Notes under the pieces: generated by a model
Seen by the model: the letters and a program-made list of their open reading frames with translations, nothing else
What the model was told of the DNA's origin: nothing
The model's database searches: none
NCBI GenBank assembly: GCA_030374765.1
Contig: JARGXX010000021.1
Span: 615,045-679,044 of the forward strand
DNA: 64,000 nt
Direction of reading: 5' to 3'
From: Agarophyton chilense
Lineage: Eukaryota; Rhodophyta; Florideophyceae; Gracilariales; Gracilariaceae
Translations under genes and position numbers: made by a program
Shown here: positions 3,716 through 35,171 of the stretch, one piece after another
Layout of the letters: every line of letters starts with the position of its first letter
How positions within the stretch are numbered: position 1 is the stretch's first letter

Positions 3716-3754
<39 letters not shown>

Positions 3755-12195: not shown

Positions 12196-12432
12196 CAGGT
12201 TTCAGGGGTTTAGGGGTTTAGTCGTTTTAGGGGAAGCTTTACCTTTATGGGATTTTGAATTTACGGAAAGGAAAACATTGTTTAGAGGTTTTAGGGGTTT
12301 TAGGGGAAAATTTACCTTTATGGGATTTTTTATTTACGGAGAGGAAAACATTGTTTAGGGGCTGGAGGGCTTTAGGAGTTTTAGGGGAAGCTGGGGTTTA
12401 TGGGATTTTAGGGGTTTTAGGGGTTTAGAGTC
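12196..12432 (+). repeat. Interstitial telomere-like repeats, proximal copy
   Basis: Runs of TTTAGGGG and TTTTAGGGG are interspersed with about three copies of a ~100-bp unit containing GGGAAGCTTTACCTTTATGG and TTTACGGAGAGGAAAACATT. The G-rich strand is on the plus strand, the same orientation as the terminal telomere 50 kb away. It probably marks an earlier chromosome end or telomeric seeding next to the helicase 3' end. Confidence 0.85.
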
Positions 12433-12866: not shown

Positions 12867-15800
12867 TCACCAAGCTGCAAGGCGTAGAATGTTGCGTACG
12901 GCAAAGTGGTTGTTGTGTGGTAACCAATCATGAAACATGGCGTCTATTTCATGGTGGGTGGGTGAGGAATCTTGGGAGGATTGGGAAATGGAGTTGAACT
13001 TGGATTGCATGAGGCCGTCAAAGAGGTGGAGTGCAATTTCGGAGCGAGTTTTGGAGCATGTTCGCCACAAGACCCATGCCAGTTGATAGAGCGAAATGAA
13101 GATGCAGTGTCTTGTTCCAAAAGTGTGCTGTTGAGAATGAGTTTTGAATCCCTTGCAGAATCCGAGATGGCATCGGTAGCAGGTTTCTTGAGGTGATTTA
13201 TCGAACCTGCAGTTGCGCGATATATGGTGCGGCGAAAAGCATCTGAAGCATCCTTGACGGGAATGGGGGAATGCATGATTGTCCGTCAAGTGCCCTTGCG
13301 TTTTTTCGTGCAGCAAGCATGGCACACAGAGAGGGGCACGTCGGCGGGAGAGCTCCTCGAAGTGTGACACGATTTGTTGCGGTGTTTTTCGTTCCAAAGT
13401 GTAAAAGAAGGTGGCAGAGTGCGACTAAGATTGAGAAGGAGCGATGGTGGGGGATTGGGTCGCAGCAGATGGATGCTTGGTTGTCAGCAACGGCGATGTA
13501 GTGGAGGTGGGGGGTCGTGGTGGACGACTGGCATGAGGTTTGGGGCTTTGTGTTGGGCCGCGGTTGTTGTTGGTGTTTTGGTTGTTTAAAGATGTTCTGT
13601 TTGATTGATTGGGACCTTTTTTTTGGGTTCGTGGGCGTTTGTGGGGAAGCGCTGGGTGACGGTGAAATGGATTGGGCGTGCTGAGAGGCAGAAGAGGTAG
13701 CGGAAACGGAGCTTCGTTTCGGGGTAAGAGAGGGGGAGACAGCTGCGATGCTATTTCAAATATCGCAATTGAGAACCGTAGGAGAGAAGAGACAGATGCC
13801 TGGTTCTTTTCCGTCCATGTGGAAATAGAGGGCGTTCCTTCGACAAACAGATTTACATTCGACCCAATGCTGCGGTTCCAACCAACGCTCCGTGGAAAGT
13901 GCTTGGTTGTATATGCGATTGGGCTCCTTAAACGCATTTGTGTTGGATGAGGACGAAGAAAGAGTTTCCGTGACGAGTTTGAAGTAGGGCTGGAAATAAA
14001 TGGTGACGCAAGTGGATGGGTTTCCATCGCGGCCTGTTGCGCGAAGTCGCAAAGACTCGCTACTCCACCAAAGTTGAAAACCAGGCGAACGTTGGGAACG
14101 TCGATGGCCGTACCAAAAGAAGAGGTGTAAACCATAAAGAGAATGTGGGTGGTTGTGGGTGCGCTGGAAGAAGGCGGAGAGTTCCAAAGGGTGTGGGCCC
14201 GGCGTTTACGAACATCGGAGAGACCAGAATTGTACAGGAGAACCGTGACAGGAGTGGATTGTTTAAGGGCACCAAAAGAAGAACGCGAAGCGGCGAGAGC
14301 TTCATGGACAGCTTTGGCAGCCGGGCGTGTTAACGAGAATATAAGAACGCGAGCTAGGGTTGTGTCAGCCGACGAGTGAAGCAATCGAGCCACATACTCT
14401 TGCATGATTGAGACGCCCAGCTGAAGCAGGTATCCAAATACATCCCGAAAGTGGCCATGAGCGGCGCAAAAGCGTGTGGCACGCGAAGTGCTTGGGGCTG
14501 AGCTTAGGTGATACACGACAAAAGAAATATTGTTTCTTGCAGTCGAAGAAGCGTACACATGCGCGTTCGGGATGTGCAGCTGCGACAGAAGGAGGGGGCG
14601 GTCGCGCGGCGGCACCGTCACGCTTAAAAGCACGCGAGGGATCTTTGTCGGAATGTGGCCGAAGCAGTTGTGGAGGTTGGCCAAGCACGGGCGAAAGTGT
14701 TGCCATAAAAGAAACAAGTGACATTCATCGATGGCAATGCGGGTGAGGCGGTCGGCGGCGATCAATCGCATGGTGAACTCTGTAAAAGAAGGAAGAGAAA
14801 GTCTTTCGGCGGAAAAGATGTAAATGTCAGCAAAGGAGTGCGATCCGGGAGGGGTGGGTGTACGAGAAGCACGAAGGCCGAAGAGCTGAGCGCGCAGTTC
14901 GTATTCACTGAGAAAGGCTGTGAGAGGGGTGATGAGAACGGTGGAGTATTTGCCCTTTTCCATGAAGACGGGGAGCAGAAGAGATAGTGTTTTTCCAGAT
15001 CTAGTCGGCTGGAGTAGTAGAATGTTGGAAAGCCTGTTGTACACGGCCGCTGTGTTCACAAATTGTTGGTGGGACTTGAATAAAGCGGAGTCGTTGGAAA
15101 GTGCCTGTCTTAGTGCTCGGAGCATTTCTGATGTAATATGTTAATAGGTCACAAGCGGTTGTTGTAAGAGAGAAGCTCCCCCGCGCGGTATGGCGGCTGC
15201 CATAAAAGCAGGCGGATGTGGATTGAAAGGATGAAAGGCCGCCAGGTTTAGGTTGATTTGAGAATGGGGAATCGCAGAGCGGTCAGTGGGAGGGGACGGG
15301 GTTGGTTGCGATGTATGGATGGAGCGCTTTTGTTCAGGTGTAGGTAGAACTGTGTCAGTAACAGGACGTTTTCTGTGGTGGTGTTGTTGTTGTTGTTGGG
15401 TGAGGGGAGCATTAAAAAGAAGACCGAGATACTGGGGCCATTTGCTGGACCACTCGCGATATTTGGAAAGTTGAGAGTGCTGCAAACCGGATATGTCATG
15501 TGGTGTACGAGCGTAAAGAAAAGCGGCGGTGTGCGCAGAGTGGCCCGCCTGGCCATGGGCAGTGGTCAATAGCTCTTCCAAGATGTGATCGGCTACAGAC
15601 GATGCGGTGACATTCGAAACTGTGTTGGTCATTCCCACGGTGAAGTTTCTATAGTCGTTGAAGGATATCGGGAAACCGCGTTTGCTCAAGTGAGAGCTGA
15701 TTATCGAGCGGATGGTGTTTGCAGCATACAGAATTCCGCAGTTGGCGAACAGCATTTTCCAATGCATCTGGAAACAGTTTTCCCCGTGCAGTCGGTGTAC

Positions 15801-18370
15801 GATATATGCTTCAAACGGACGTATGACAGTCAAGTACATGAGCAGAAGACGGGATGTTTGGGCATCGGGAAAGCGAGCAATCGGAGTGGCGGCCCCTTTG
15901 CTGTTTCGCGTTTTCATGTAACGGCAAATGATGACAGGCGATTTGTCCATGAGCATGAGACAACGTTGAAAGTGTTGGTCGTTGTAGATACGGTATGTCT
16001 CAATCTCTGTGCCGCGCGCAGGAGAGCCCGACGAAAGGTGTAGCGCAACCAACAGGCGTTCTTGGATTTTCTGCGCACATGAGAGCCACCTCGACAACGC
16101 ATGGGTGAACATATCGGTGCCGAAAATGTCGGTTGTGGGCAGTTGGGTGCGGGGAAAGGTACCGTTTTGCTTCCGTTGCGGAAGAAACGGAGTGTGGTCG
16201 GTGTTGGAGTTGTGGGGCACGGAAGACGTGAGACAAGTGAAAACGAAAGCCATGTTTTGTTCGATAAACGGGCGGTTGTTGAGTTTGGTAAAAAAAGAAA
16301 AGCCTGCGCTTTTGTTGAAGGAGTCGTCCTGAAGAGAGTGTAGCGCGTTTGTGAAACCGGTTGGCAGAGCGTGGCCAAGAAGCAGGTCGTTGTGAAGAGT
16401 ATGTTGTATTTCTTTGTATAGAGTTAAAACCAAAGAGGCGACTTCTGAGAGGGCGAGGTGAATGTCACGCACTATGCCGCAGGACGGGTGAACATCACAA
16501 TTGTGGAAAGAAACAAACATTTCCTCGCGAGAGGATATGGACATTGCAAGCGTGAGTGTCTTTCTGACAAACGAAAGTGCGCTGTTGGAATCAGCGTCAA
16601 TCGCCGCGTCGATGGTACGCATGCGTTCTTGAACGTGAACCGTGCGTTCGGAAGCAGGGGTGGCAGTTTGCAACAGGGGAGAAGATTTGGAGACCACGTG
16701 CAGTTCGTGTATGGCGCAGGCACAGATGCCATATTGAAGAGCGGCCAGGAGGCGCGTCACATCTGAGGCGGCTGCAAAACGAAAGGAGGTATTGTTGGGC
16801 TCGTGAGAAATGACCGTGTCGTAAGGCTCAGGCGTGCGGTCAGACGGCAAGGGGGCAGCGATAAGCGGGTTGGGGTCGGTGCTTATCATGCTTGCGCAAG
16901 CAATGAAGTTGCGAACGGAGAGGAGATCTAAAGACTGGTATGGCGCTAAAGATTGAAGCAAGAAAGGCTTGAGAGCGCTATGGACCGCTGGGCCATGTTG
17001 GGTTGGAGGAAACGGGGCGGGGAGCTCACCGGAGGAAGACATGCGAATGGCATCCAACACGGAAGTAGTGTAGCAGTACATGAGGTCTGAGTCGGGTACG
17101 AGATGAGGGAGGTTTGCCCTTGTCCTGTGAGTAAACACAAGCAAACGGGAAATGTGTGAAGCGTAACGCTTGAGGGTTTCAGTGGAGACAGTTTTAAAAG
17201 CTGTGTCCGTGCGCTTTTTGAGGCGGTCCAAGAAAGCCAGGGAGGTCTTACTAACCAAAATGTTCACCTGAGAGAGGTAGTCGAAGATGTGGTGGGTGAT
17301 GGTGCTTTCAGCGGATGTGGGCGTTGTGCCAGTTCTGGATAGTTGAGCCGCCACATCCAGATGAACATGGAGCGAGTGAAGAACGATGTCAAACTTGGAA
17401 AAGGTGATGAAGGAATTCTTCTCCGAGTGGTGACTAAGCAAAGGGTCTGATTGCGAACAAGGAGCGCCGGTGTTGAACTTTTGTAAAAAGTGGGTATTGT
17501 GTTGAAGCGGGGGCTCCATGCCTTTAACAGTCGTTGCCACTGGACGATGGGGTGGTTGGAGACAAACAGGCTGCGTCGGGGGGTCTAAGGCCGTGCCGCA
17601 GGCGCCTGCAGAACCTGGAAAGTTTTGGACAAGCAGCCTATGGGTTGAGCATTGGTAACGGGGAATAAACGGCGACGAACGCCGCCGTACACTGTCTGCA
17701 AGGCAATACGGCCCGACGAGACGGTACGGTCCAGGTGCGGCTGGGCAACCGCAGGCGACATGTTGTGGCATTCGATCAGATGCGTTTGCAGACGAACGGG
17801 GTCGAGGTAGTAGAATTTGCAGAGCTGGCACTGATAGCCATTGTGAATGGCAATGTGTGCCAGGGGCGTGAGGAACGTAGAGGGCCCGGACACAAATTGA
17901 GCGTTGTGGTGGGGGCGATACTTTTGCCACACGGGGGCAACGGTAGAGTTGTTGCGCAAGGTGTGCACCTCGTGCAGGATTGCCATTGACATGGCACGTG
18001 CAATTTCCAAAGGGATGGAGTGCTGTTTGCGCAGGTGATGTTGGATTGCACGGGCAGACGGCAGCCCACACTGGCAGTTGACGCACAACGGAAAGAACCC
18101 AATAGAATGAATACCCATATTCACAATGGTACCGAGTGCCATGATAAAAGAGGAAGAATCGTCGGCTGCATTCGCGTCGGTAACGGGTAAGTCGGAATGG
18201 GGTTGAGCATGGGCGTCACGCGCCACGGGCGGAGGCGGTGGGGGGAGCAGGGGATTAGGGGGAGTGGGCGGTGAGATGTTCACCGCAGCCCTCGGTGGGA
18301 TGTGCACCGAAGAGGGGATGAACACGGGCAAGCCATGTTCGCCGGCGGAGGATAAGCTGTTTTGCGACAT
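12867..18370 (-). pseudogene. Telomere-linked RecQ-type helicase (TLH-like), proximal copy, inactivated
   Basis: The start is the ATG at 18370, opening MSQNSLSSAG. The N-terminus has two OrsD-type C2H2 fingers of identical CX2CX12HX4H spacing (C96/C99/H112/H117 and C181/C184/H197/H202). A recombinase-like middle and a RecQ core follow, as in the distal copy. Relative to that copy it carries a TAG at 17585-17587 with a one-base G-run difference, a TAA at 15141-15143, Gly-to-Arg in Walker A (15002), GTG-to-GTA-type damage (GTGID reads GTAID), and SAT read as SVT. It also has a 13-bp deletion at about 14031 that removes the motif VI arginine finger (QAGRAGRDG), a compensating indel near 13620, and a TAG at 13425-13427. 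The stop used distally (TGA) is TGG here, so the frame runs on to 12867. The gene is clearly dead, yet it preserves the 5' end that the distal copy lost. Confidence 0.9.
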
Positions 18371-19334
18371 AACTGAACGTGTAAGAGAGAGAAGAAGATG
18401 GGAGGATTGTTTTTGAAGACCCAAAGAAAGACACACACAAACAAACACAAATGAGTTTGGGAGCAACAGCGAAATGGACGGGTTCACTGCCGATATAGCA
18501 GTATAAGTAGTAAATAGGTGGGGCGAGGGTAATTGGAGAAAGGCGGTTTGGTGCTTTGGGGGAGGGCGCGTGTGGCTGTCTCGAGCAAACGGCATACTGT
18601 AAAAGGGAAACAACACGATACTATGTGGTATTGCAGGTCATTCATTCCCGGTGTATGACTGTGGGGTTGTGGGGAGGAGTGTGTCAGAATAAAGCTCATT
18701 GGCCTCCGCCCCATTGAAGAGAGTGATTTTGTGTAAGGGGCGTGGTTTGCGTGCAGGTGGGGAGCGGGACGGGGAAAAAGGGCAGCGCGGAGAAGAGATG
18801 GGGCTGCACGGTCGTGAAGTTGGGTTGGGGGAGGGCAGAAGTTTTCAGGGTGGGTTCGTCTTTGTGTCTAAATGGACGGAGGTTTAGAACGAGCTGGGGC
18901 GCGATCGGGTGCGCCAGCGGATGTTGTGCGGCAATGTGGCAACTTGTTGTGAAGCATGACGTTTTCGGAACGGCTAACTAGTGGCGGTGGTGGCGTATCG
19001 TACACACGTATCAGTTTGAGCACAAGCGGTGCTGCACCGCGGTTGAGCTCATATATGCATATGCGGCATGTTTGACCGTTGATTTTGGAAAAATAGTGCT
19101 ACATGTGACGTGGGTAGGAGGGGTGCTATGTGTTACAGTATGCGCTCTGTGCAACGTTACGATGGTGTTTGGCAAAAGAATGAGATGTTGCGCGGCGTGG
19201 CAGTGGGGGCCGAAGAAGAAGGTTATAGGTTTTCTGTTTTTAAAACGAATGAAGGAAGAGAGTTTGCGCGTGGTTGTTCTTAGGAGAGAAGGTTTAGTTT
19301 TTAGTTGTGTTTTACTGTGAAAGAAAAGAAACAA
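18371..19334. other. Intergenic region upstream of the helicase
   Basis: This 964-bp gap lies between the helicase start and the stop of the methyltransferase-SET gene, all on the minus strand, so it should hold the helicase promoter and the 3' flank of the methyltransferase. No motif can be assigned with confidence. Short plus-strand frames here look accidental. Confidence 0.45.
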
Positions 19335-21581
19335 CTAATCTACAAGATTCACATGAAAGGTGTGTGGTTGTGGTTTTGGAAGCATGGGCCAATGATCGTA
19401 GTCGTAGCCATAGTCTATTAGCACTTCTTCCTCTCGCTCAATTGTTCGGGTGGCCACTATTGTGATAAGGTGGTAGTCTTGGATTCCTGACTTAGAGTTT
19501 TTCAAAGTAGACGAAAGGCGCGCTACTGCATTTGGTGTGCGAGGGTTTGGGAGTACCTTGTCCCGTAAGGCCTGAATGTCGAGGTCCTCTGGGCGGTATT
19601 GGGCATCATTGATGATTCCGCCAACACAGAACGGGGCAGGCGTGATCCACATGGAGTGGGTTCCACGGTCTCCCGGGGTGGGCAGTCTGACAAAGTCTGG
19701 ACCTGTTACTCGGATTTCCATGGAAGTGGAGTTGAAGCGCTCCACGGTGACGGCGAGCAAACCGTTCGCATACGAAGACTGTGTGGCGAAGCGTTTGGAG
19801 AGGTCGTGGTAGACGAGGGTTCCATAAAAGTAGCACACGGTGTCGCCTTCATTAAACTGGCGTGCGGCAAAGACACCGTCTCCCGCCAAGGGGTGTCGAA
19901 TGTCGGACTTTTTGGTATACACTCCATGGGCATACCCTTCTTTGGCAAGTAACGTAGCCGGATCGATCTGAGTGAGAAGGCCCTGTTTCTCTCGCGGCCA
20001 TTCATGCACCGGTTTAGTGCGGCAAACGGCTGCAAACTCACGTTCTTTCCACAAGTTGCAGAGAAAGGAAGCGAGCGGCGCAGGAAAAATTTGGTACTGT
20101 GGCAGACCGGGAGGCGCGGTCGATAAGTATTTCGATCGTAGGTCCTGGTTCGGTAGTGAGCGAACTAGGCGATTGAACTTGGCGATGAGATGGTGCGGCA
20201 CTTCAATGTCGGTGCTGTTCTGTAAAACGGTTTTGATAAAGTGAACGACAGCATCGTGTTTTGCGTGGGCGTAACACACTGCGTCTTTCTCACACTCTAA
20301 AAAGCGTCTGTGACCTGGGAGCTCCATGCACGCCAAAGCGGTGGAACCCGTTCCGGCAAATAAATCCACCACCATGTCGCCAGGCTGAGAATAGCGGCTT
20401 ATGAGTTCCTTGAGTAGAGCACGACTCTTCTGCTCCGGGCGTACTTTTTCAGTGACGGCGTTGTGATTGGTGGTGACACAATGCAGGCGATTCCAACGCA
20501 GGGTGTCGCCAGCGGCTAGTCCCGGCACGTTATCAATCACGTTCTTGTAAGCCGGGTAGCGAGATGGAACGTAGTTGTAGTTGACGAGATTTAGGCGAGC
20601 CAGGTTTTTATCGTGAGTGAGCCCCGTTTTGATGCCGTGAATGGCGTACTCGGTGATGGGCAACGGCGACGTTCGCAGCCCGCGGTGGCTCCCAGTAGGA
20701 TGGAAGGCGGCGCGGACGAAAACCAACGGCACAGGGTCCACCTTGAACAGCGCAGTTTGGGACTCGGAAATGCTCTTGAAGCACGACAACCACGGCCTGA
20801 ACTGGCGAATGGAGCAAAAGAGAATAAAGTGGCCGCCAGGGCACAACAGCTTGCCAATAACCTGCGCCGTGCGCTTCATATCGTCTTGGGAAATGGCGTC
20901 GTGGAGGCGGTTGTGGCGGTCAGCTAAGGAACGAATGTTGTAGGGCGGGTCGGTGAGGACGAGTTGCACTGCTCCGACTGGAGATGAGGCGGTAGTTCGT
21001 TTGATAATATCCACCTGTACGAATTCTTTGAAATCGACACCGTAGAGGCGAATATGCTTTTCCATTTCGTCCTCTGCCTCTTGTAAAGCGTTGAGAGTGG
21101 TAGTTTGGGTGAAGGAGTGCGGCGGGAGGACGCGAGTTTCGTTGACGTTGTAGGGAAGATTTGGGGGTTCGGGAGGAGGTGAGGGACCAGCGGCGTTGGC
21201 GCGTTCCGACGACGACGGTAGTGGCGCTCCAGGATCAGGCGGAGGTTGCTGCTGTGACTCGTTCATAATGATGTCCACCAACTCGGCTTCTTTTTTGGCT
21301 ATCTCCACGACCGGGTTGAGGGGCTGGCCCGGAATAGGGCCGACCATAGCCATCCGAATCGGGGTCCAAAGTGGCAGACCGAACGTCGTGAAGCGGTGAG
21401 GGTACACGTTGACGGTCGAGTTATACTCGAACTGCGTCAAAGATTGCCAGCGAGTGGTTTCATCCATTTCGTATAGAAAGTCGTTGAACAGCAGGCGGTG
21501 AAGGTCGTTCAAAAACTCGGGAGCTAGCACGCGTAGATTGCGGTCAACCTCGTCGGTGTGGGACCAGGCGACGCTGTCCAC
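19335..21581 (-). CDS. N6/N4-type DNA methyltransferase fused to a SET domain
   Basis: 748-codon open frame; residues are counted from the first start-like codon (GTG, 21581) and the first ATG is residue 39. Residues about 205-450 form a bacterial-type beta-class DNA amino-methyltransferase (N6_N4_Mtase fold). Catalytic motif IV is LTDPPYN (211-215), RPEQKS (381-386) resembles the HPTQKP motif X, and SAM-binding motif I is DLFAGTGS (406-413), followed by GHRRFLECE. DPPY favours adenine-N6, but the N4-cytosine alternative stays open. Residues about 550-730 match a SET lysine methyltransferase: GDGVFAARQFNEGD, CYFYG, GGIINDA in place of the usual NHSC block, PNAVARL, and the terminal EEEVLIDYGYDY. 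A proline-rich linker (110-145) precedes the methyltransferase. The frame is continuous with the upstream gene except for a TAG. The predicted role is nuclear DNA and histone (or other protein) methylation. The domain calls are strong; activity is untested. Confidence 0.88.
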   Translation of the reverse strand: MDSVAWSHTDEVDRNLRVLAPEFLNDLHRLLFNDFLYEMDETTRWQSLTQFEYNSTVNVYPHRFTTFGLPLWTPIRMAMVGPIPGQPLNPVVEIAKKEAELVDIIMNESQQQPPPDPGAPLPSSSERANAAGPSPPPEPPNLPYNVNETRVLPPHSFTQTTTLNALQEAEDEMEKHIRLYGVDFKEFVQVDIIKRTTASSPVGAVQLVLTDPPYNIRSLADRHNRLHDAISQDDMKRTAQVIGKLLCPGGHFILFCSIRQFRPWLSCFKSISESQTALFKVDPVPLVFVRAAFHPTGSHRGLRTSPLPITEYAIHGIKTGLTHDKNLARLNLVNYNYVPSRYPAYKNVIDNVPGLAAGDTLRWNRLHCVTTNHNAVTEKVRPEQKSRALLKELISRYSQPGDMVVDLFAGTGSTALACMELPGHRRFLECEKDAVCYAHAKHDAVVHFIKTVLQNSTDIEVPHHLIAKFNRLVRSLPNQDLRSKYLSTAPPGLPQYQIFPAPLASFLCNLWKEREFAAVCRTKPVHEWPREKQGLLTQIDPATLLAKEGYAHGVYTKKSDIRHPLAGDGVFAARQFNEGDTVCYFYGTLVYHDLSKRFATQSSYANGLLAVTVERFNSTSMEIRVTGPDFVRLPTPGDRGTHSMWITPAPFCVGGIINDAQYRPEDLDIQALRDKVLPNPRTPNAVARLSSTLKNSKSGIQDYHLITIVATRTIEREEEVLIDYGYDYDHWPMLPKPQPHTFHVNLVD

Positions 21582-21602
21582 TTCAGATTGGACTTTGGAA
21601 GG

Positions 21603-22532
21603 CTATGCCTCCTTGGCAAATGTGGTAGTTTGCGATAACGGGGCGTAGCCTTCCTCGCGGCGTTCGAGAGCTTGGTAGGTTAGGGTGTTGCTGTCGAACA
21701 AGATGTACGGAGCGAGCATGTGCTCCAGTGAGTCATACCCAAGATGGCGGCAGAACACATTCCAAGATGTCACAAGCTTGTGCACGACAAATGAAATTCG
21801 CTCGCACGTTTCGTGCTTAAAGTTTTGCAACGAAGGCAACAAAGAGGTCGCGGTTGCAACGCCGGTATTGAGGCGTTGTTTCTTGGTCTGGCGCGATTTG
21901 AGTTTCTCGCGTTTGAGAGTGTAGATCATCGAAAGGTACAAAACCATTTCAAAACGAGATGCCTCAACGGTAGTGGAGAATCGTGAGCGACTGTCCTTGG
22001 AAGTTTGCGACTGCGGATGCAGAATGCGCGATTTGAGGAAGGACGACAAGAGAGACGTTTTCGAAATGAGCAAGTCGACCTGACGGCTGGGGCGGCGGCG
22101 ATTTGTAGGCGCATTGGAAGAACGAGCACTTGCACGGGTGGTAACATTACCAGCAACAGAAGAGGGTTGCTGCTCAGAAGTATTGCTTGAAGCTTGGATT
22201 TGGAGGTAGAGCTGGTACAAGTCCCTGAGACGCCGGTCGTCGCAACCATCGTCGAGGTCTACACATCTGCCCGTGAGGTACACCTGAGAGAAGTAGTGGT
22301 TTTTGAGGAGGCTGTGTTGTATGTCCGTGTTGGTGTACTTGCCGTGCTTATCAGATGGCATGACCAAGGAGCAAACTTCCTCTGCAGCTGGCACAGAGCC
22401 TCGGTTCTGAACTGTGAAGTAGACCAAGTCCAGGTACTGGAGCGCGCGGGCGTTGGGATCATCGGGGCGCATGCGGGCGTACCCGTCGCGCAGCGGCAAG
22501 AACAAACCAATGAGACCTTCGGTGGTGACCAT
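21603..22532 (-). CDS. Hypothetical protein (309 aa) upstream of the methyltransferase-SET gene
   Basis: The start is taken at the ATG at 22532 (MVTTEGLIGLF). The open frame extends further upstream to 22715 without an ATG, and that part is proline/serine-rich and less protein-like. The product has a globular N-terminal half (LRDGYARMRPDDPNARALQYLDLVYFTV), a low-complexity serine/arginine middle, and a helical basic C-terminal half (KREKLKSRQTKKQR). No known domain is recognised. The TAG at 21603-21605 is followed in the same frame, after seven sense codons, by the methyltransferase-SET frame, which lacks an early ATG. The two may therefore be one readthrough or formerly fused gene. Together they would make a protein of about 1,060 residues. 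Confidence 0.6.
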   Translation of the reverse strand: MVTTEGLIGLFLPLRDGYARMRPDDPNARALQYLDLVYFTVQNRGSVPAAEEVCSLVMPSDKHGKYTNTDIQHSLLKNHYFSQVYLTGRCVDLDDGCDDRRLRDLYQLYLQIQASSNTSEQQPSSVAGNVTTRASARSSNAPTNRRRPSRQVDLLISKTSLLSSFLKSRILHPQSQTSKDSRSRFSTTVEASRFEMVLYLSMIYTLKREKLKSRQTKKQRLNTGVATATSLLPSLQNFKHETCERISFVVHKLVTSWNVFCRHLGYDSLEHMLAPYILFDSNTLTYQALERREEGYAPLSQTTTFAKEA

Positions 22533-23529: not shown

Positions 23530-24801
23530 ATGCGATCGCGTGGAAAACATGAAAAGATGAAAGCAGCCGACGTCGTCTTTCTTTTGCCGAAAGGCGAAGG
23601 GGGAAACCGCCAGCGCATCGAAACGGCTGTGTTGATGCCTGGTAGGAAGGAGGGGGAATTGTCCAGGGATATGCATGGATCTAGCCTAAAGAGCTTTGAG
23701 GCGGAAGGTGAGGATTTGGTGAAAGTTCGCAGTGTTAAGGTCCTACCGGGGTTTGACAACATTAGGTACCCGTACCGACTTGGTGGTGTGGAAGAACCGC
23801 CTGCAACACTGGGTGGGGTGTTACCGAATTCATTTTATTCGTGGGACCTAGGTATGATGGAGGCGATGGAAACAACAGGGGAGGTGGTTGAGGTGGATTC
23901 AGATGAATCCGCTGATGCGGTCGGAAAGAGGAGGAGAAAGTCCCCACCCCCGTCGAAGGGTACTCCTGACGTACAACGGCGTCCACCAACGACGCCCCGA
24001 ACGGGAAGTCGTAGGACGAGGTCCCAAAGCCGCCAAGGGCGCGCATCGCAGCGCTCGAATGCATCTGGTTCGACTGCAACGGTAGCTGGGGCAACTGTTG
24101 CCACCGTTTCTCCCGGTTCAATTCGACGCACTGGGCGACCTCGTCTGAGGTCTCAACCAACGCCCCGCAGGGGCACATCCGTTTCACGCGCAGTAACGCC
24201 ACGCCCTCGTACGCCACCGGGCGGAACGATTGAAGTGGGTACTTCGGTGGCCAAGGCAGTGGAGGTGGATGAGGACGTCATTTTCACGGGTATGAGGTCG
24301 GGCCCGTCGAACACCCGGTCATTGTCCCAAGCCGTGGAGCCTACGAAACAGGTTGTTGCGATCCCCACCGATAGCAAGATTGAGCTGAACCACTACAGGC
24401 AGGTGAATGCTACGATGGATATCGGCAGAATTCGCTACGGGGAGCATCAAGTGCGGGCATTGAATGGGCAGCACAGGGAGAATTTGAAGGTTATGATGGA
24501 GCAGCAAGGTGTTTTAGGAGCGGTTGGGCGGGTGAGCGTTGCGATCGTGCTCGGCGGCAGATCACTGGATGAGGCTCTTCAAGGCAATTCAACTACCTGT
24601 GAGTGTCTGTTGGTGGATGGGCTTCTTCGTTTGGTGGTGTACCAAGACCTGAGGAACACGTCCGAGAGGTGGAAAAGCATGACCCAGGTGCTGGACGTCG
24701 TTCTGTGGTTGCGACCGGACGGGAAGGACCTCACAAGGAAGGAGCGGTTGAGCATCGGTTGTAAGCTGAACATCATGGCAAGCAACATGTTGGCGATGTA
24801 G
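23530..24801 (+). CDS. ParB/sulfiredoxin-like domain protein, array copy 1 (first ORF)
   Basis: The start is the ATG at 23530 (the frame is open upstream from a TTG at 23479); 423 codons to TAG. Order along the protein: an N-terminal globular part (about 10-115); an acidic spot (VVEVDSDESAD); a long basic Pro/Ser/Arg-rich linker with an AT-hook-like core (TGRPRLR, about 201-207); and a C-terminal domain (about 295-375). The C-terminal domain reads MDIGRIRYGEHQVR ... ENLKVMMEQQGVLGAV ... CLLVDGLLRLVVYQDL, the pattern of ParB/sulfiredoxin-like domains (helix, GVL turn, then (V/I)DGxHR). This copy has Leu where copies 3-6 have His in GLHRL (24625-24627). The AT-hook suggests AT-rich DNA binding. 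The ParB-like call is from pattern only. Confidence 0.6.
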   Translation: MRSRGKHEKMKAADVVFLLPKGEGGNRQRIETAVLMPGRKEGELSRDMHGSSLKSFEAEGEDLVKVRSVKVLPGFDNIRYPYRLGGVEEPPATLGGVLPNSFYSWDLGMMEAMETTGEVVEVDSDESADAVGKRRRKSPPPSKGTPDVQRRPPTTPRTGSRRTRSQSRQGRASQRSNASGSTATVAGATVATVSPGSIRRTGRPRLRSQPTPRRGTSVSRAVTPRPRTPPGGTIEVGTSVAKAVEVDEDVIFTGMRSGPSNTRSLSQAVEPTKQVVAIPTDSKIELNHYRQVNATMDIGRIRYGEHQVRALNGQHRENLKVMMEQQGVLGAVGRVSVAIVLGGRSLDEALQGNSTTCECLLVDGLLRLVVYQDLRNTSERWKSMTQVLDVVLWLRPDGKDLTRKERLSIGCKLNIMASNMLAM

Positions 24802-26397
24802 TTTGCGGACCGCGTGCGCACCACCGTGTCGTTCATAATGGCGTCAGTGTTGGATGACAAGGTGAAGGTCAAGTCACTGACGTCATATGCGGTGGCAGTA
24901 GCGATGCAAGAGTTTATTCTACTCGGCACATTGGAAACGACGCAACTTCGGCGCTACGCCGACATTGCCCTTGCCCTTGTAAGGAGCCCGGAGTTGCTGA
25001 GCAACTTTGAGAAGGTGTGCAAAGAGGCGCCGAAGCTGGGTCTGTCGCATTTGTCGGACGACCGGTTGTACACACTCGATGAAGGCGGTTTTTTGTTTTG
25101 CGTGGAGTGTGTGAAGGCTTTACTGGGTACCCGCGGGGGTTTCGAAGGGGTGAGAAGGGGCCGGTTCGAGGATATGCGGTATTACTTTTTCAAGTTTGCG
25201 CTGCAGGTGTACTTCTTTTGCCGACAAGTTGGCAGAGAAGAAGGACGTGACGGTTGCCGCCGTGCTCGACACCCAAATGAGCATTGGCGGAGTGGAAACG
25301 TCCACCGTGCGGAACTTCCTCGTGATGATTGTGTCGAAGATGGAGAACTCCGGGAGCGACCGGCAGTGGGAAAGGAAGCTGGAGCGCAAAATGAAGGAAG
25401 TGACGGAAAGGATGGAGGGGTTGTTTGAAGTAGGGAATGAGGAGAGGAGTAGGGACAGGGTCTCCAGCGAGCCTTCGGGGCAGCATCAAAGTCGGAGCGC
25501 TCCGGGAGGGGCGAAGGTGAGGACTGTGGCGCCGTCGCCGGATGTGGCTGTGTTGGACTTGGACGACGACATAAACTACAACGAGTCGCGTCCAAGGGTG
25601 AGCACGCGTAAGGGGAAAGGAAAAAGATCTGTTCCAAGGGTGGAAGAGGTGCCGGTTGGGCGTGCAAGGGGTGTGAAGCGAAAAGCTCCTGACACGAGAC
25701 TGCCTCCACCCAGTCGCCGGTCGAAGAGAACCCAACTGGCACAGGAAAGGGAGTTGTTGCAGCGGATGAAGCAGTTGCGGAGAGATACTCTGTTTGAACT
25801 GTTGGGGAACCTGGGAATCCGCGCCGAGAACTTCTCAGACGGCGAGCGTAATGAGGCATTCGTGACGGACGATGCAGTGGGTGACGGAGTGCAGCAGGGT
25901 GGGGGGGGGGGTCGAAGAGAGATGCTGACATTGAGCGCCCATTTGACGACTCTAACCCTCCCGATGGACCGCCGCAATGGATGAGGCTGCCAGAAACTTA
26001 CAAAGGGGCTTCATCGCCGGCATGGTGTAATTGGGCAAATGTGCCGCCGAGCATGTTGCCAAAGGATGTTAACGTGATTGAACACGTGCATCCATGGCTG
26101 GACACCATCCATATGGCGTCAAAGCACCGAGGTGAATGCCTGACGGCGGAAGAGCTGAAGCTGGTCCACCATCTGGTGTTTTGGCACGCCGCGAAGGAGA
26201 AGCATGCGGCGCTGGAATCTACCAAGGTTCCGGTGTTTGGACAAGTGCTACCGACGAGCGGCAATCCGAAAAGTGAAGAGGAGCGCCTGTGGATGGCAGC
26301 GATGGAGCGGGATGAGTTGGCGTTGGAGTTCTTCGGTGAAAAGCGTAGGGAGCTGCAACACCAAGCTACTAATACTATTGGTAATCAGCATAAGTAA
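24802..26397 (+). pseudogene. Downstream part of ParB-like gene, copy 1 (frames B, C, D)
   Basis: The frame of the first ORF continues after the TAG without any missing residue (FADRVRTTVSFIMASVLDD..., to about 25206). Protein-like sequence then moves to the +1 frame near 25207-25228 (LAEKKDVTVAAVL..., containing a basic stretch KRKAP...SRRSKRTQ and a helical ELLQRMKQLRRD). At the poly-G tract (25901-25911, 11 G) the frame is lost again. The last part (25981-26397), ending with TAA, is in a third frame. No domain is recognised. The same arrangement is found in every copy, so the interruptions predate amplification or are bridged by splicing or recoding. Confidence 0.55.
25901..25911 (+). repeat. 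Poly-G tract, copy 1 (11 G)
   Basis: Homopolymer encoding glycine; its length decides whether frame C joins frame D. With 11 G the frames are not joined. Confidence 0.85.
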
Positions 26398-28320: not shown

Positions 28321-29592
28321 ATGCAATCGCGTGGAAAACATGAAAAGATGAAGGCAGCCGACGTCGTCTTTCTTTTGGCGAAAGGCGAAGGGGGAAACCG
28401 CCGGCGCATCGAAACGGCTGTGTTGATGCCTGGTAGGAAGGAGGGGGAATTGTCCAGGGATATGCATGGATCTAGCCTAAAGAGCTTTGAGGCGGAAGGT
28501 GAGGATTTGGTGAAAGTTCGCAGTGTTAAGGTCCTACCGGGGTTTGACAACATTAGGTACCCGTACCGATTTGGTGGTGTGGAAGAACCGCCTGCAACAC
28601 TGGGTGGGGTGTTACCGAATTCGTTTTATTCGTGGGACCTAGGTATGATGGAGGCGATGGAAACAACAGGGGAGGTGGTTGAGGTGGATTCAGATGAATC
28701 CGCTGATGCGGTCGGAAAGAGGAGGAGAAAGTCCCCACCCCCGTCGAAGGGTACTCCTGACGTACAACGGCGTCCACCAACGACGCCCCGAACGGGAAGT
28801 CGTAGGACGAGTTCCCAGAGCCGCCAAGGGCGCGCATCGCAGCGCTCGAATGCATCTGGTTCGACTGCAACGGTAGCTGGGGCAACTGTTGCCACCGTTT
28901 CTCCCGGTTCAATTCGACGCACTGGGCGACCTCGTCTGAGGTCTCAACCAACGCCCCGCAGGGGCACATCCATTTCACGCGCAGTAACGCCACGCCCTCG
29001 TACGCCACCGGGCGGAACGATTAAAGTGGGTACTTCGGTGGCCAAAGCAGTGGAGGTGGATGAGGACGTCATTTTCACGGGTATGAGGTCGGGCCCGTCG
29101 AACACTTGGTCATTGTCCCAAGCCGTGGAGCCTCCGAAACAGGTTGTTGCAATCCCCACCGACAGCAAGATTGAGCTGAACCACTACAGGCAGGTGAATG
29201 CTACGATGGATATCGGCAGAATTCGCTACGGGGAGCATCAAGTGCGGGCATTGAATGGGCAGCACAGGGAGAATTTGAAGGTTATGATGGAGCAGCAAGG
29301 TGTTTTAGGAGCGGTTGGGCCGGTGAGCATTGCGATCGTGCTCGGCGGCAGATCACTGGATGAGGCTCTTCAAGGCAATTCAACTACCTGTGAGTGTCTG
29401 TTGGTGGATGGGCTTCTTCGTTTGGTGGTGTACCAAGACCTGAGGAACACGTCCGAGAGGTGGAAAAGCATGACCCAGGTGCTGGACGTCGTTCTGTGGT
29501 TGCGACCGGACGGGAAGGACCTCACAAGGAAGGAGCGGTTGAGCATCGGTTGTAAGCTGAACATCATGGCAAGCAACATGTTGGCGATGTAG
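28321..29592 (+). CDS. ParB/sulfiredoxin-like domain protein, array copy 2 (first ORF)
   Basis: ATG at 28321, TAG at 29590-29592, same length as copy 1. Eleven amino-acid replacements against copy 1 were counted by eye (for example P-to-A in LLPKG, R-to-W in NTRSL, R-to-P in VGRVS), against about seven silent changes. It also has GLLRL in place of GLHRL. It is the most diverged first ORF in the array together with copy 1, and the unit that keeps the downstream poly-G in frame. Confidence 0.6.
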   Translation: MQSRGKHEKMKAADVVFLLAKGEGGNRRRIETAVLMPGRKEGELSRDMHGSSLKSFEAEGEDLVKVRSVKVLPGFDNIRYPYRFGGVEEPPATLGGVLPNSFYSWDLGMMEAMETTGEVVEVDSDESADAVGKRRRKSPPPSKGTPDVQRRPPTTPRTGSRRTSSQSRQGRASQRSNASGSTATVAGATVATVSPGSIRRTGRPRLRSQPTPRRGTSISRAVTPRPRTPPGGTIKVGTSVAKAVEVDEDVIFTGMRSGPSNTWSLSQAVEPPKQVVAIPTDSKIELNHYRQVNATMDIGRIRYGEHQVRALNGQHRENLKVMMEQQGVLGAVGPVSIAIVLGGRSLDEALQGNSTTCECLLVDGLLRLVVYQDLRNTSERWKSMTQVLDVVLWLRPDGKDLTRKERLSIGCKLNIMASNMLAM

Positions 29593-31198
29593 TTTGCGGA
29601 CCGCGTGCGCACCACCGTGTCGTTCATAATGGCGTCAGTGTTGGATGACAAGGTGAAGGTCAAGTCACTGACGTCATATGCGGTGGCAGTAGCGATGCAA
29701 GAGTTTATTCTACTCGGCACATTGGAAACGACGCAACTTCGGCGCTACGCCGACATTGCCCTTGCCTTTGTAAGGAGCCCGGAGTTGCTGAGCAACTTTG
29801 AGAAGGTGTGCAAAGAGGCGCCGAAGCTGGGTCTGTCGCATTTGTCGGACGACCGGTTGTACACACTCGATGAAGGCGGTTTTTTGTTTTGCGTGGAGTG
29901 TGTGAAGGCTTTACTGGGTACCCGCGGGGGTTTCGAAGGGGTGAGAAGGGGCCGGTTCGAGGATATGCGGTATTACTTTTTCAAGTTTGCGCTGCAGGTG
30001 TACTTCTTTTGCCGACAAGTTGGCAGAGAAGAAGGACGTTACGGTTGCCGCCGTGCTCGACACCCAAATGAGCATTGGCGGAGTGGAAACGTCCACCGGG
30101 CGGAACTTCCTCGTGATGATTGTGTCGAAGATGGAGAACTCCGGGAGCGACCGGCAGTGGGAAAGGAAGCTGGAGCGCAAAATGAAGGAAGTGACGGACA
30201 GGATGGAGGGGTTGTTTGAAGTAGGGAATGAGGAGAGGAGTAGGGACAGGGTCTCCAGCGAGCCTTCGGGGCAGCATCAAAGTCGGAGCGCTCCGGGACG
30301 GGCGGAGGTGAGGACTGTGGCGCCGTCGCCGGATGTGGCTGTGTTGGACTTGGACGACGACATGAACTACAACGAGTCGCGTCCAAGGGTGAGCACGCGT
30401 AAGGGGAAAGGAAAAAGATCTGTTCCAAGGGTGGAAGAGGTGCCGGTTGGGCGTGCAAGGGGTGTGAAGCGAAAAGCTCCTGACACGAGACTGCCTCCAC
30501 CCAGTCGCCGGTCGAAGAGAACCCAACTGGCACAGGAAAGGGAGTTGTTGCAGCGGATGAAGCAGTTGCGGAGAGATACTCTGTTTGAACTGTTGGGGAA
30601 CCTGGGAATCCGCGCCGAGAACTTCTCAGACGGCGAGCGTAATGAGGCATTCGTGACGGACGATGCAGTGGGTGACGGAGTGCAGCAGGGTGGGGGGGGG
30701 GGGGGGGGGGGGTCGAAGAGAGATGCTGACATTGAGCGCCCATTTGACGACTCTAACCCTCCCGATGGACCGCCGCAATGGATGAGGCTGCCAGAAACTT
30801 ACAAAGGGGCTTCATCGCCGGCATGGTGTAATTGGGCAAATGTGCCGCCGAGCATGTTGCCAAAGGATGTTAACGTGATTGAACACGTGCATCCATGGCT
30901 GGACACCATCCATATGGCGTCAAAGCACCGAGGTGAATGCCTGACGGCGGAAGAGCTGAAGCTGGTCCACCATCTGTTGTTTTGGCACGCCGCGAAGGAG
31001 AAGCATGCGGCGCTGGAATCTACCAAGGTTCCGGTGTTTGGACAAGTGCTACCGACGAGCGGCAATCCGAAAAGTGAAGAGGAGCGCCTGTGGATGGCAG
31101 CGATGGAGCGGGATGAGTTGGCGTTGGAGTTCTTCGGTGAAAAGCGCAGGGAGCTGCAACACCAAGCTACTAATACTATTGGTAATCAGCATAAGTAA
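29593..31198 (+). pseudogene. Downstream part of ParB-like gene, copy 2 (C and D joined)
   Basis: The part after the TAG is open to about 30000 in the original frame, then moves +1. This is the only copy in which the poly-G tract (21 G, a multiple of three) leaves C and D in one frame: 29987-31198 is open for 403 codons and ends in TNTIGNQHK. It therefore shows the intended C-terminal sequence: basic stretch, helical segment, polyglycine, then a segment with SSPAWCNWANVP and ERLWMAAMERDELALEFF. No start codon of its own is credible. Confidence 0.55.
30692..30712 (+). repeat. Poly-G tract, copy 2 (21 G)
   Basis: In-frame length (seven glycines); the only array copy with C and D joined. Confidence 0.85.
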
Positions 31199-31766
31199 GA
31201 GGTAGTAACACACATAGTACTACATCAGTGGTTGTTTTTGTCATACGTAGAAGATTTTCTGAATACGGTATTCCAAGTAGATGTGGCGCTTGCAACGGCG
31301 CCACTGTATGCAGTATAAAACCGTACGATGAGTAAACGCGATTGCAACGGGGGGATCGAGTCAAGGAGGCGGTTTTGTGTCGTGAGGAATATTGAGGTGT
31401 TACGAAATGGGGCCATTTGACGATTGCAGGCGTAAATGTGGTTTTCAAAAAGGTATCTTATATCGTAAGTTACCCGTACTTGTCCGTGATGATTGTATTA
31501 AACGGTAAAGTCATCACAGCGTACACGCGTATTGAGGTGAATCGACGTACTGCAGCTCCGCGTAGAAGTAATGCAAGCACATGCGTGCATATGAAAAGCA
31601 ATGGCCACTGCAATGCGCGGTGGCACCCTAGCGCGTGATGTTTACCATGTGCTGTGAAGGCTATGTGTTTTAGAATACTTGGTTGAAGGCGTAATATGGC
31701 GTGTGGGGGGTACAGGGGGGTGTTTTAGGATGTGGGCAGACGTAGTCAAAAAGCAGCAAAAGGGGG
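31199..31766. other. 3' flank of ParB-like gene 2
   Basis: Same content as after copy 1, with one fewer G (6 instead of 7) in the short TATA-downstream frame and otherwise minor changes. Its right end carries GCAGCAAAAGGGGG, as at the spacer ends, rather than GGCGATTGGG, a sign of recombination between segment ends. Confidence 0.4.
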
Positions 31767-31911
31767 ATTGCCTGCAGGCAATAAATTTCAACTGCGAATT
31801 ACGGCTTATAATTTGCACCCCGATTGTTGATTTGCATTATTATTTCGCACTTTCGGGGTGCAAATGATGAGCCGTAATTCGTAGTTGACCAAAAGTGCCC
31901 GCAGGCAATTT
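31767..31911. repeat. Foldback element HP4
   Basis: 145-bp foldback copy between gene segment 2 and spacer 2; the right arm has TTCGTAG for TTCGCAG. Confidence 0.9.
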
Positions 31912-32542
31912 CACTCAATGTGAGCAAACTCGTTTCCCTCCTACCAGGCGCCGTACCAAGGCCATAGCTGCTCTATATAGCCGATTCCCATGCCTGTGTC
32001 TCCCTCTAACGGCTTTATACCAACGTTAACAACGGTTATCGAACCGGTTGGGGCTGAACATCTTTTCGAGCGGCGGCCAACCTTAGATTACCACAGGCGA
32101 ATACTGTCAAATGTGAATGTTGAACGAGCTCTCGTAAACGATGTCGACAGACATGTTTGTGGAAAGACATGTTTTGGTGCACTCCTGAGAATTAGTAGCA
32201 TCTGTATAGAGAGGAGAGTGGTGAGAAAGTTTGGTTTTTTACAGTACTTGGTTGATATTAAATAGTTGAATGTATATTGGTTGTGACACGTGGCAGTGGA
32301 AAAGAAGCGTTGTGGGCGAGTGAAGAGACGCCGTGAAACATCATGAGGCTTTCGGTTTTGAAATGGTGCTTGAAATGGGTCTACAGAGGCGTATGCGAGA
32401 TATGAGGGGTGTGGTGAGAGTTTAGGAATGTGGCGCAAACGTAGGGAGAGTCGTGTGGGCGAAGGCGCAAAACGGGGTGTGGGGGGCCCAGGGGAGTGTT
32501 TTTGGATGTGGGCAGACGTAGTCAAAAAGCAGCAAAAGGGGG
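31912..32542. repeat. Spacer S2 (631 bp)
   Basis: Long form. The ATG-started frame 31990-32265 (91 codons) is open here. The product has no recognised domain, and the frame is closed in some other spacers, so it is unlikely to be a gene. Confidence 0.85.
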
Positions 32543-32687
32543 ATTGCCTGCAGGCAATAAATTTCAACTGCGAATTACGGCTTATAATTTGCACCCCGAT
32601 TGTTGATTTGCATTATTATTTCGCACTTTCGGGGTGCAAATGATGAGCCGTAATTCGTAGTTGACCAAAAGTGCCCGCAGGCAATTT
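32543..32687. repeat. Foldback element HP5
   Basis: 145-bp foldback copy between spacers 2 and 3. Confidence 0.9.
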
Positions 32688-33318
32688 CACTCAATGTGAG
32701 CAAACTCGTTTCCCTCCTACCAGGCGCCGTACCAAGGCCATAGCTGCTCTATATAGCCGATTCCCATGCCTGTGTCTCCCTCTAACGGCTTTATACCAAC
32801 GTTAACAACGGTTATCGAACCGGTTGGGGCTGAACATCTTTTCGAGCGGCGGCCAACCTTAGATTACCACAGGCGAATACTGTCAAATGTGAATGTTGAA
32901 CGAGCTCTCGTAAACGATGTCGACAGACATGTTTGTGGAAAAACATGTTTTGGTGCACTCCTGAGAATTAGTAGCATCTGTATGGAGAGGAGAGTGGTGA
33001 GAAGGTTTGGTTTTTTACAGTACTTGGTTGATATTAAATAGTTGAATGTATATTAGTTGTGACACGTGGCAGTGGAAAAGAAGCGTTGTGGGCGAGTGAA
33101 GAGACGCCGTGAAACATCATTAGGCTTTCGGTTTTGAAATGGCGCTTGAAATGGGTCTACAGAGGCGTATGCGAGATATGAGGGGTGTGGTGAGAGTTTA
33201 GGAATGTGGCGCAAACGTAGGGAGAGTCGTGTGGGCGAAGGCGCAAAACGGGGTGAGGGGGGCCCAGGGGAGTGTTTTTGGATGTGGGCAGACGTAGTCA
33301 AAAAGCAGCAAAAGGGGG
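32688..33318. repeat. Spacer S3 (631 bp)
   Basis: Long form, almost identical to S2; the 91-codon frame is open at 32766-33041. S2-HP5-S3 looks like a direct local duplication. Confidence 0.85.
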
Positions 33319-33463
33319 ATTGCCTGCAGGCAATAAATTTCAACTGCGACTTACGGCTCATAATTTGCACCCCGATTGTTGATTTGCATTATTATTTCGC
33401 ACTTTCGGGGTGCAAATGATGAGCCGTAATTCGCAGTTGACCAAAAGTGCGCGCAGGCAATTT
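33319..33463. repeat. Foldback element HP6
   Basis: 145-bp foldback copy before gene segment 3; the left arm has TGCGACTTACGG for TGCGAATTACGG. Confidence 0.9.
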
Positions 33464-33544
33464 GCCACACAGAACCCCCCAAAAAAATGATAAAATTTTG
33501 TGTCTGTGCAGCGGTTTTTTTTTGGAACGGATGGCGATTGCCGT

Positions 33545-33561
33545 CACGCGTGTCACGCGTC
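33545..33561. promoter_or_regulatory. Double ACGCGT motif upstream of ParB-like gene 3
   Basis: CACGCGTGTCACGCGTC variant; both ACGCGT cores kept. Confidence 0.4.
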
Positions 33562-33899
33562 GTTGGGGTTCAGGTTGCCACTACGCAACCACTAGGAGCC
33601 CTTTTTAGTTTTTCGCGGAAAGGACGGAGTCGAAGTACACCCGTTTACACCTGTTTTCCCCGCCCTCACATTCCGTCCCTTTCCCGAACTGCAGCCTCTG
33701 TGTTGTTTTGTAAACGGATCAAGCGGGCGCCGTCAAACTTCGCATCAAGTCCGCACTTCTATTTGAATCATCTCTCCGCGGGCCTGAGTTTGGGATCTGC
33801 CGTATTTGCCTCTGTGTTCCGCCTTCATTCGCCCGTCTCATAGTTTTCTTGTCACGCTCTTCTGCGCGCATCTCCCCGGTTCATATTGTTTGTATCGCA

Positions 33900-35171
33900 A
33901 TGCAATCGCGTGGAAAACATGAAAAGATGAAAGCAGCCGACGTCGTCTTTCTTTTGCCGAAAGGCGAAGGGGGAAACCGCCAGCGCATCGAAACGGCTGT
34001 GTTGATGCCTGGTAGGAAGGAGGGGGAATTGTCCAGGGATATGCATGGATCTAGCCTAAAGAGCTTTGAGGCGGAAGGTGAGGATTTGGTGAAAGTTCGC
34101 AGTGTTAAGGTCCTACCGTGGTTTGACAACATTAGGTACCCGTACCGATTTGGTGGTGTGGAAGAACCGCCTGCAACACTGGGTGGGGTGTTACCGAATT
34201 CATTTTATTCGTGGGACCTAGGTATGATGGAGGCGATGGAAACAACAGGGGAGGTGGTTGAGGTGGATTCAGATGAATCCGCTGATGCGGTCGGAAAGAG
34301 GAGGAGAAAGTCCCCACCCCCGTCGAAGGGTACTCCTGACGTACAACGGCGTCCACCAACGACGCCCCGAACGGGAAGTCGTAGGACGAGGTCCCAGAGC
34401 CGCCAAGGGCGCGCATCGCAGCGCTCGAATGCATCTGGTTCGACTGCAACGGTAGCTGGGGCAACTGTTGCCACCGTTTCTCCCGGTTCAATTCGACGCA
34501 CTGGGCGACCTCGTCTGAGGTCTCAACCAACGCCCCGCAGGGGCACATCCGTTTCACGCGCAGTAACGCCACGCCCTCGTACGCCACCGGGCGGAACGAT
34601 TGAAGTGGGTACTTCGGTGGCCAAGGCAGTGGAGGTGGATGAGGACGTCATTTTCACGGGTATGAGGTCGGGCCCGTCGAACACTTGGTCATTGTCCCAA
34701 GCCGTGGAGCCTCCGAAACAGGTTGTTGCGATCCCCACCGATAGCAAGATTGAGCTGAACCACTACAGGCAGGTGAATGCTACGATGGATATCGGCAGAA
34801 TTCGCTACGGGGAGCATCAAGTGCGGGCATTGAATGGGCAGCACAGGGAGAATTTGAAGGTTATGATGGAGCAGCAAGGTGTTTTAGGAGCGGTTGGGCG
34901 GGTGAGCGTTGCGATCGTGCTCGGCGGCAGATCACTGGATGAGGCTCTTCAAGGCAATTCAACTACCTGTGAGTGTCTGTTGGTGGATGGGCTTCATCGT
35001 TTGGTGGTGTACCAAGACCTGAGGAACACGTCCGAGAGGTGGAAAAGCATGACCCAGGTGCTGGACGTCGTTCTGTGGTTGCGACCGGACGGGAAGGATC
35101 TCACAAGGAAGGAGCGGTTGAGCATCGGTTGTAAGCTGAACATCATGGCAAGCAACATGTTGGCGATGTAG
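33900..35171 (+). CDS. ParB/sulfiredoxin-like domain protein, array copy 3 (first ORF)
   Basis: ATG at 33900. It carries the GLHRL form of the key motif, which fits the ParB/sulfiredoxin pattern better than copies 1-2. It has Trp in KVLPWFDN where copies 1, 2 and 6 have Gly. It is nearly identical to copies 4 and 5. Confidence 0.62.
   Translation: MQSRGKHEKMKAADVVFLLPKGEGGNRQRIETAVLMPGRKEGELSRDMHGSSLKSFEAEGEDLVKVRSVKVLPWFDNIRYPYRFGGVEEPPATLGGVLPNSFYSWDLGMMEAMETTGEVVEVDSDESADAVGKRRRKSPPPSKGTPDVQRRPPTTPRTGSRRTRSQSRQGRASQRSNASGSTATVAGATVATVSPGSIRRTGRPRLRSQPTPRRGTSVSRAVTPRPRTPPGGTIEVGTSVAKAVEVDEDVIFTGMRSGPSNTWSLSQAVEPPKQVVAIPTDSKIELNHYRQVNATMDIGRIRYGEHQVRALNGQHRENLKVMMEQQGVLGAVGRVSVAIVLGGRSLDEALQGNSTTCECLLVDGLHRLVVYQDLRNTSERWKSMTQVLDVVLWLRPDGKDLTRKERLSIGCKLNIMASNMLAM

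Follow-up and report, generated by a model that had tools for sequence, protein, structure and literature searches.

A DNA amino-methyltransferase–SET fusion gene on repeated elements of the red alga Agarophyton chilense

Beta-class N6-adenine methyltransferases include the bacterial CcrM and M.HpyAVI-like enzymes, and the N4CMT of bdelloid rotifers is a captured N4-cytosine (N4C) methyltransferase with an SPPY motif and a chromodomain reader. In fungi, a RecQ-type gene encoding the telomere-linked RecQ helicases is repeated at chromosome ends. The available part of PMC8885841 gives DPPY as the motif of bacterial N6-adenine enzymes and SPPY as that of most bacterial N4C enzymes. Transposon-borne chromatin enzymes are also known: the accessible text of PMC12730594 places SET genes in HarbingerS and in Phytophthora MuDR elements, and TET/JBP genes in many fungal transposons, including Plavaka. 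En/Spm families of 16–20 kb with 4–5 ORFs have been described from the red alga Chondrus crispus (Kojima et al. 2013, cited in the accessible extract of PMC6431247).

Here we describe a repeated gene, found in a stretch of 64,000 nucleotides (the window; C21:615045-679044) of the 79.8-Mb, 135-contig genome of Agarophyton chilense, the product of which joins a DNA amino-methyltransferase to a SET domain. The genome has phycobilisome linker domains, all 13 of those scored exceeding the cut-off; among 14 control genomes only that of Synechococcus gave a match. The methyltransferase is about 20% identical to CcrM and M.HpyAVI-like enzymes; in the red-algal protein, unlike these, the methyltransferase is preceded by a large region and followed by a SET domain, and this protein is eukaryotic, repeated and borne on elements. 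Whereas the rotifer N4CMT couples SPPY to a reader, the protein described here couples DPPY to a SET domain of the writer type, and its gene is present in many copies, partly in transposons. As in HarbingerS, MuDR and the TET/JBP-bearing elements, DNA transposons carry a chromatin- or DNA-modifying enzyme; those elements carry a modifier of either histones or DNA, whereas the red-algal protein combines the two types in a single polypeptide, with an amino-methyltransferase as its DNA enzyme. The Chondrus En/Spm families, compared through the citing description only, share red-algal host, size and ORF number with one of our two gene families (family B) and are probably elements of the same kind. 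The other (family A) may resemble the fungal telomere-linked RecQ system in having a RecQ-like helicase gene repeated at chromosome ends, and differs in its red-algal host, in an OrsD zinc finger in front of the helicase and in the adjacent methyltransferase–SET and partner genes.

Among the papers listed by our literature searches, outside Kojima et al. 2013 (Repbase Reports), where such a fusion would most likely have been described, none names a methyltransferase–SET fusion in a transposon. With this gene, the transposons with chromatin enzymes of their own gain an amino-methyltransferase example from a red alga. A single protein that possibly marks DNA bases as well as histones would permit a direct test of the coupling between N6-methyladenine (6mA) and histone methylation, so far an association in the survey of PMC12695648, as far as its available part goes.

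A repeated gene joining two domains

The sequence-only reading had noted one frame carrying a bacterial-type DNA amino-methyltransferase and a SET domain, near a telomere of a eukaryote; Pfam matches and fold comparison bear this out, and the gene proves longer than first noted. An upstream 376-aa frame lies in phase with the 755-aa frame, with one TAG between them (Table 1), and the family-B protein aligns across window positions 22526-19371. The ATG at MVTTEGL is common to all seven other family-A copies that were read (L002–L008) and gives a protein of 1065 aa. The window frame represents one copy of a repeated gene, interrupted by a nonsense codon.

Table 1 Features of the gene and its surroundings in the window
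Feature	Position	Strand	Match
Degenerate telomere-like repeats, inner end of block	12208..12361		
OrsD-type C2H2 and helicase gene, 3′ of the methyltransferase–SET gene, several broken frames	13425..18637	-	OrsD PF12013, 2.5e-7
755-aa open frame, methyltransferase and SET, C-terminal two thirds of gene	19335..21602	-	
SET domain: GDGVFAA, FYGTLVY, IND, PN, EEVLIDYG	19407..19883	-	Pfam, 1.7e-5
N6_N4_Mtase domain: DPPYN ... RPEQK ... DLFAGTGST, beta-class motif order	20280..20969	-	Pfam
In-frame TAG interrupting the window copy	21603..21605	-	
N-terminal part of methyltransferase–SET gene, same frame, from ATG (MVTTEGL...)	21606..22532	-	
Partner copy 1 of 6, without C-terminal part; ParB/DGQHR-like N-terminal part	23596..26367	+	tblastn, P0044 residues 16-477 and 725-867 of 1174
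Partner copies 2-6, mostly about 5.5 kb apart, common truncation point	28360..53348	+	
Helicase gene copy 2, 5′ end runs into telomere	57210..62249	-	DEAD 8.2e-12, Helicase_C 4e-10
Telomere, chiefly TTTAGGGG and TTTTAGGGG units	62242..64000		

The 61 scored rows resolve into 34 family-A copies (C19, C22 and C88 each contributing one second-piece row) and 24 family-B copies; these are lower bounds, at least 34 and at least 24, with 60 of 189 first-look candidates scored. Stop-free frames of 1130-1220 aa are present in 21 of the 34 family-A copies, the window copy being counted among the 34, and the remaining 13 are shortened or interrupted; a full-length stop-free frame occurs in 10 of the 24 family-B copies. 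These frames rule out two adjacent genes misread as one, and at the level of the gene they answer the doubt that the two domains might lie in separate transcripts: full-length copies span both in one frame. A chance or spurious frame is likewise ruled out by the Pfam match, the fold, the conserved family and the repeated full-length copies.

The methyltransferase of the window protein scores 55.7 bits against the Pfam N6_N4 model (cut-off 26.7). The order of its motifs, with the catalytic DPPY/SPPY block preceding the SAM-binding FxGxG block, places it in the beta class, and structure comparison recovers a beta-class N6_N4 methyltransferase fold. A homologue search returned 43 proteins, one of them from Chondrus crispus, and among the 33 listed by an alignment-based search, 16 were not in that first set. 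We aligned 41 of the 43 proteins (without P0007 and P0043) with the window protein and the family-B copy L009, giving 43 rows (alignment A1), in which the methyltransferase is detected in 43 and the SET domain in 30 at E up to 0.05, so that the fusion is not the one-off it had seemed from the window. DPP is present in all 43 rows, the next residue being Y in 39 of them and F in the other 4. RxEQK, like DPP, is invariant, as are the D and the G at the SAM site. By the rule given in the available part of PMC8885841, DPPY points to N6-adenine specificity, and the methylated base would accordingly be N6-adenine rather than N4-cytosine.

The SET domain scores 25.6 bits in the window protein and 23.4 in the family-B copy (gathering threshold 22.4). 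Its fold also stands up to structure comparison, Foldseek matching it to the SET domain of MLL3 (E 8.6e-6), and the family SET profile matches KMT2C and KMT5A chains, and EZH2 chains over a short stretch. The NHSC block is absent from the window protein and from most of the family in the 43 rows of A1, where IND... stands in its place. The INDA already remarked on in the window is indeed there and, with IND in most aligned rows, is a family trait. The histidine of NHSC is replaced across the family, mostly by D, a change that may have altered or abolished catalysis. The N of IND is kept in 32 of the 43 rows (6 are gapped), the asparagine of the PN position in 36 (the remaining 7 are gapped) and the late catalytic tyrosine (GEEL..Y; EEVLIDYG in the window) in 29 (9 are gapped). 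The putative substrate of the SET domain is a histone.

Similarity to prokaryotic DNA was found at 7 loci and reaches only the methyltransferase domain. These 7 and the 80 viral loci kept of 112, all obtained with the alignment, match essentially the methyltransferase domain alone, at no more than 28% identity where they span the domain; shorter pieces reach 48%. A single-protein search of viral contigs gave no pattern match. The single-protein and alignment scans each looked for a single methyltransferase peptide pattern, and SET fusions elsewhere could escape them. We reject a viral origin for lack of evidence, the viral matches being of low identity and essentially limited to the methyltransferase domain.

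A chromosome-end block and a Plavaka-type transposon

Family A belongs to a fixed block. A zinc-finger/helicase match lies on the same strand, 722-1836 bases past the matched 3′ end, in all 34 copies. Of the 28 copies that could be placed relative to the contig ends, 27 (of 34 in all) are no more than 70 kb away from one, and one is internal (C4:1098578). A contig end need not be a chromosome end, as C116 begins inside the partner gene. The two helicase copies of the window are 96.3% identical in DNA over 4.66 kb, and the helicase domains are detected on the second, which matches the RecQ family TIGR00614 at 5.9e-26, below the NCBI cut-off. A likeness by eye of the middle of the helicase gene to a tyrosine recombinase was dropped, Pfam giving no match there.

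The window contains neither a family-B terminal repeat, even with 6 mismatches allowed, nor a match to the transposase. Of the 123 listed Plavaka matches, 38 are on contigs bearing family A, and one of the 34 family-A copies has a listed match less than 15 kb away. The zinc-finger and Plavaka distances were taken for all 34 family-A and 24 family-B copies against hand-picked rows (36 of 96 zinc-finger and 32 of 123 Plavaka), and the Plavaka check was repeated with all rows on family-A contigs. Family A may be mobile, or it may spread only through exchange between chromosome ends. On contig C10 (G000:C10:10210-32710), matches to TTTAGGGG at 22247, 27463 and 32679 are 5216 bases apart, a spacing that points to helicase units arranged in tandem, every unit bearing a telomeric tail. 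Within the telomere array of the window, positions 62363-62382 form a run of 20 G, perhaps an artefact of sequencing or assembly.

Family B, the protein of which is about 42% identical to that of family A, is cargo of an 18–19-kb Plavaka-type DNA transposon. Twenty loci were fetched; two were extended and align with each other at 95-99%, ending abruptly on both sides to delimit elements of 18.9 and 18.0 kb with an imperfect terminal inverted repeat. Identical 2-bp target duplications flank 11 of 12 end pairs (9 of 10 fetched pairs together with C12 and C105), the pair L047/L048 differing; the ten fetched pairs were chosen as having both ends among 40 listed rows, and 7 of them are shortened elements (4-16 kb). 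The C12 element encodes a Plavaka transposase of 1155 aa (4.6e-22; PF18759, 79.1 bits against a cut-off of 26.3), and a transposase match lies 2.6-5.0 kb downstream of the gene in 22 of the 24 family-B copies. The other ORFs encode the methyltransferase–SET protein (1043 aa), the divergent partner (1047 aa, C105) and a 923-aa product with no convincing Pfam match. In the accessible part of PMC12730594, Plavaka elements make a 2-bp (or 2-3-bp) target duplication and end in TGT..ACA (PlavakaA) or CATCA..TGATG (PlavakaB). The family-B termini, CGTC..GACG, fit neither of these subgroups; we therefore call the element Plavaka-type on the strength of its transposase and place it in no described subgroup. 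Adjoining the C105 element is a frame resembling by eye a Gypsy-like retrotransposon pol (L032:1691-4855, minus strand).

The two families differ in apparent constraint. In family A, pN/pS is 0.30 (28 pairs from 8 copies; the copies are very alike and the pairs not independent), with 0.24 for the N-terminal part, 0.37 for the methyltransferase and 0.22 for the SET domain, and the family is apparently under selection. In family B it is 0.83 (36 pairs from 9 of the 20 fetched copies, the tenth full-length frame, L021, being left out for its different start), near neutral, as in transposon copies once they have inserted, and gives no indication of post-insertion selection. In a tree of 36 of the 43 A1 rows, P0001 joins the window protein first, P0002 next and family B after it, all within one fully supported clade; the branching order puts the split between families A and B before that between family A and P0002.

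The divergent partner gene

Head-to-head with the methyltransferase–SET gene lies a partner gene, in the window, on C116 and in two family-B elements, that is, at two places per family, and wherever the flanks examined reached far enough. The family-A stretch on C31 (3.9 kb more, to a contig end 5.4 kb upstream of the gene) holds only upstream repeats and no partner. Positions 23344-55000 of the window consist of six tandem units with a truncated partner, the first spacing being 4.8 kb, and with inner repeats of 776/737 bp; on C116 the partner can be followed as far as residue 1030 of P0044 or beyond.

The partner homologue P0045 matches DGQHR weakly (6.8e-4; 19.5 bits against a cut-off of 58.85), Pfam finds neither a ParB nor a nuclease domain in the partner, its profile gives 0 matches in the PDB, and the AlphaFold model of P0045 (pLDDT 36.9) is unusable. 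The C-terminal part has the pattern HTD...GRGD(V/L)(F/W)H...RYH, and such an HxD...H...R arrangement presumably resembles that of 2-oxoglutarate dioxygenases. On the weak DGQHR match and the motifs recognized by eye, the partner may aid targeting. Three homologues of the fusion protein (P0032, P0040 and P0042) seem by eye to have a ParB-like stretch fused before the methyltransferase, which Pfam does not confirm. The homologues nearest family A, P0001 (methyltransferase–SET) and P0044 (partner), are each on 4 contigs, the longest of 20528 bases, and with these matching figures may share one contig.

Possible roles, and other features of the window

The explanation we prefer, in which our confidence is about even, is a double chromatin writer belonging to selfish elements: a CcrM-like DNA adenine methyltransferase and a SET lysine methyltransferase which, in a cassette with the partner, would keep the element expressed. 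Included in it, at the same even confidence, is that the gene and its divergent partner make up a cassette on repeated elements, the Plavaka-type transposon (family B) and the chromosome-end block with the RecQ-like helicase (family A). The N-terminal region and the ParB/DGQHR-like partner would guide the enzyme to the DNA of the element, where the methyltransferase would place 6mA and the SET domain would methylate a lysine of neighbouring nucleosomes, by which element promoters would stay in permissive chromatin. Action in cis, the anti-silencing direction and the role of the partner are each putative.

Because the family-B relatives are transposon cargo inside contigs, marking of the element's own chromatin is a simpler reading than the silencing of a chromosome end. 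According to the available part of PMC12695648, 6mA and H3K4me3 coincide in the unicellular eukaryotes surveyed. The 6mA there is deposited by AMT1, an MT-A70 rather than a beta-class enzyme, inhibition of H3K4me3 changed it little, and the inhibitor work gave no demonstration that H3K4me3 directs 6mA (PMC12695648, same part); the analogy is thus a loose one.

That the enzyme might silence the repeated chromosome end was the idea of the sequence-only reading. Broadened to self- or telomere silencing, in which 6mA and a repressive lysine mark would restrain the element or pack the chromosome end as heterochromatin, it would suit the closeness of most family-A copies (27 of 34) to a contig end, and it has a parallel in the rotifer, where a captured bacterial methyltransferase with a chromodomain works with silencing (PMC8885841, available part). 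As first put, it is not supported. Against silencing are the relatives carried by transposons inside contigs and the association of 6mA with H3K4me3 and permissive chromatin in the species surveyed, which involves another enzyme family (PMC12695648, available part). The SET matches, too, include MLL3/KMT2C, of the H3K4 type, although EZH2 and KMT5A match as well. We consider silencing unlikely.

Unlikely to a similar degree is that the DNA methyltransferase alone is active, the SET fold being a pseudo-enzyme that binds nucleosomes or a partner. The loss of the NHSC histidine, mostly to D, and the detection of SET in 30 of 43 rows against 43 of 43 for the methyltransferase would agree with this, whereas the persistence of the N of IND, the PN-position asparagine and the late tyrosine, and a pN/pS for SET (0.22) that is the lowest of the family-A segments measured, speak against it.

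Nor does a resident host gene seem probable, one amplified with subtelomeres, unrelated to selfish elements and captured once by family B. The pN/pS of 0.30 in family A, its nearness to contig ends and the later split of P0002 from family A than of family B are what such a gene would show; the fixed block with the helicase gene in 34 of 34 copies, the telomere-like repeats at the block ends in the window and the 13 of 34 copies that are shortened or interrupted speak against it. Quite improbable is a tag for transposition or for protection, in which 6mA would mark the element ends or shield DNA from a nuclease (of the partner or the host) with SET auxiliary: the ParB/DGQHR-like partner paired at two places per family and the ParB-like stretch seemingly fused, by eye, in P0032, P0040 and P0042 would accord with it, but the partner has no nuclease domain by Pfam.

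An extension of the double-writer explanation, which we put forward as doubtful, is a portable cassette able to write, and perhaps erase, marks, composed of the double writer and its ParB/DGQHR-like, dioxygenase-suggestive partner and common to two unrelated types of red-algal selfish element. The presence of the gene in both settings suggests that chromatin enzymes move between unrelated element types.

Elsewhere in the window, a minus-strand frame at 5106-6038 resembles a Ulp1-type protease (Peptidase_C48, 8.4e-4; 19.7 bits against a cut-off of 20.7). Two in-line plus-strand frames of 377 and 432 aa at 1372-3804 have no convincing Pfam match, the 432-aa frame bearing a slight likeness by eye to tyrosine recombinases, and positions 7445-8409 hold a 346-bp tandem repeat.
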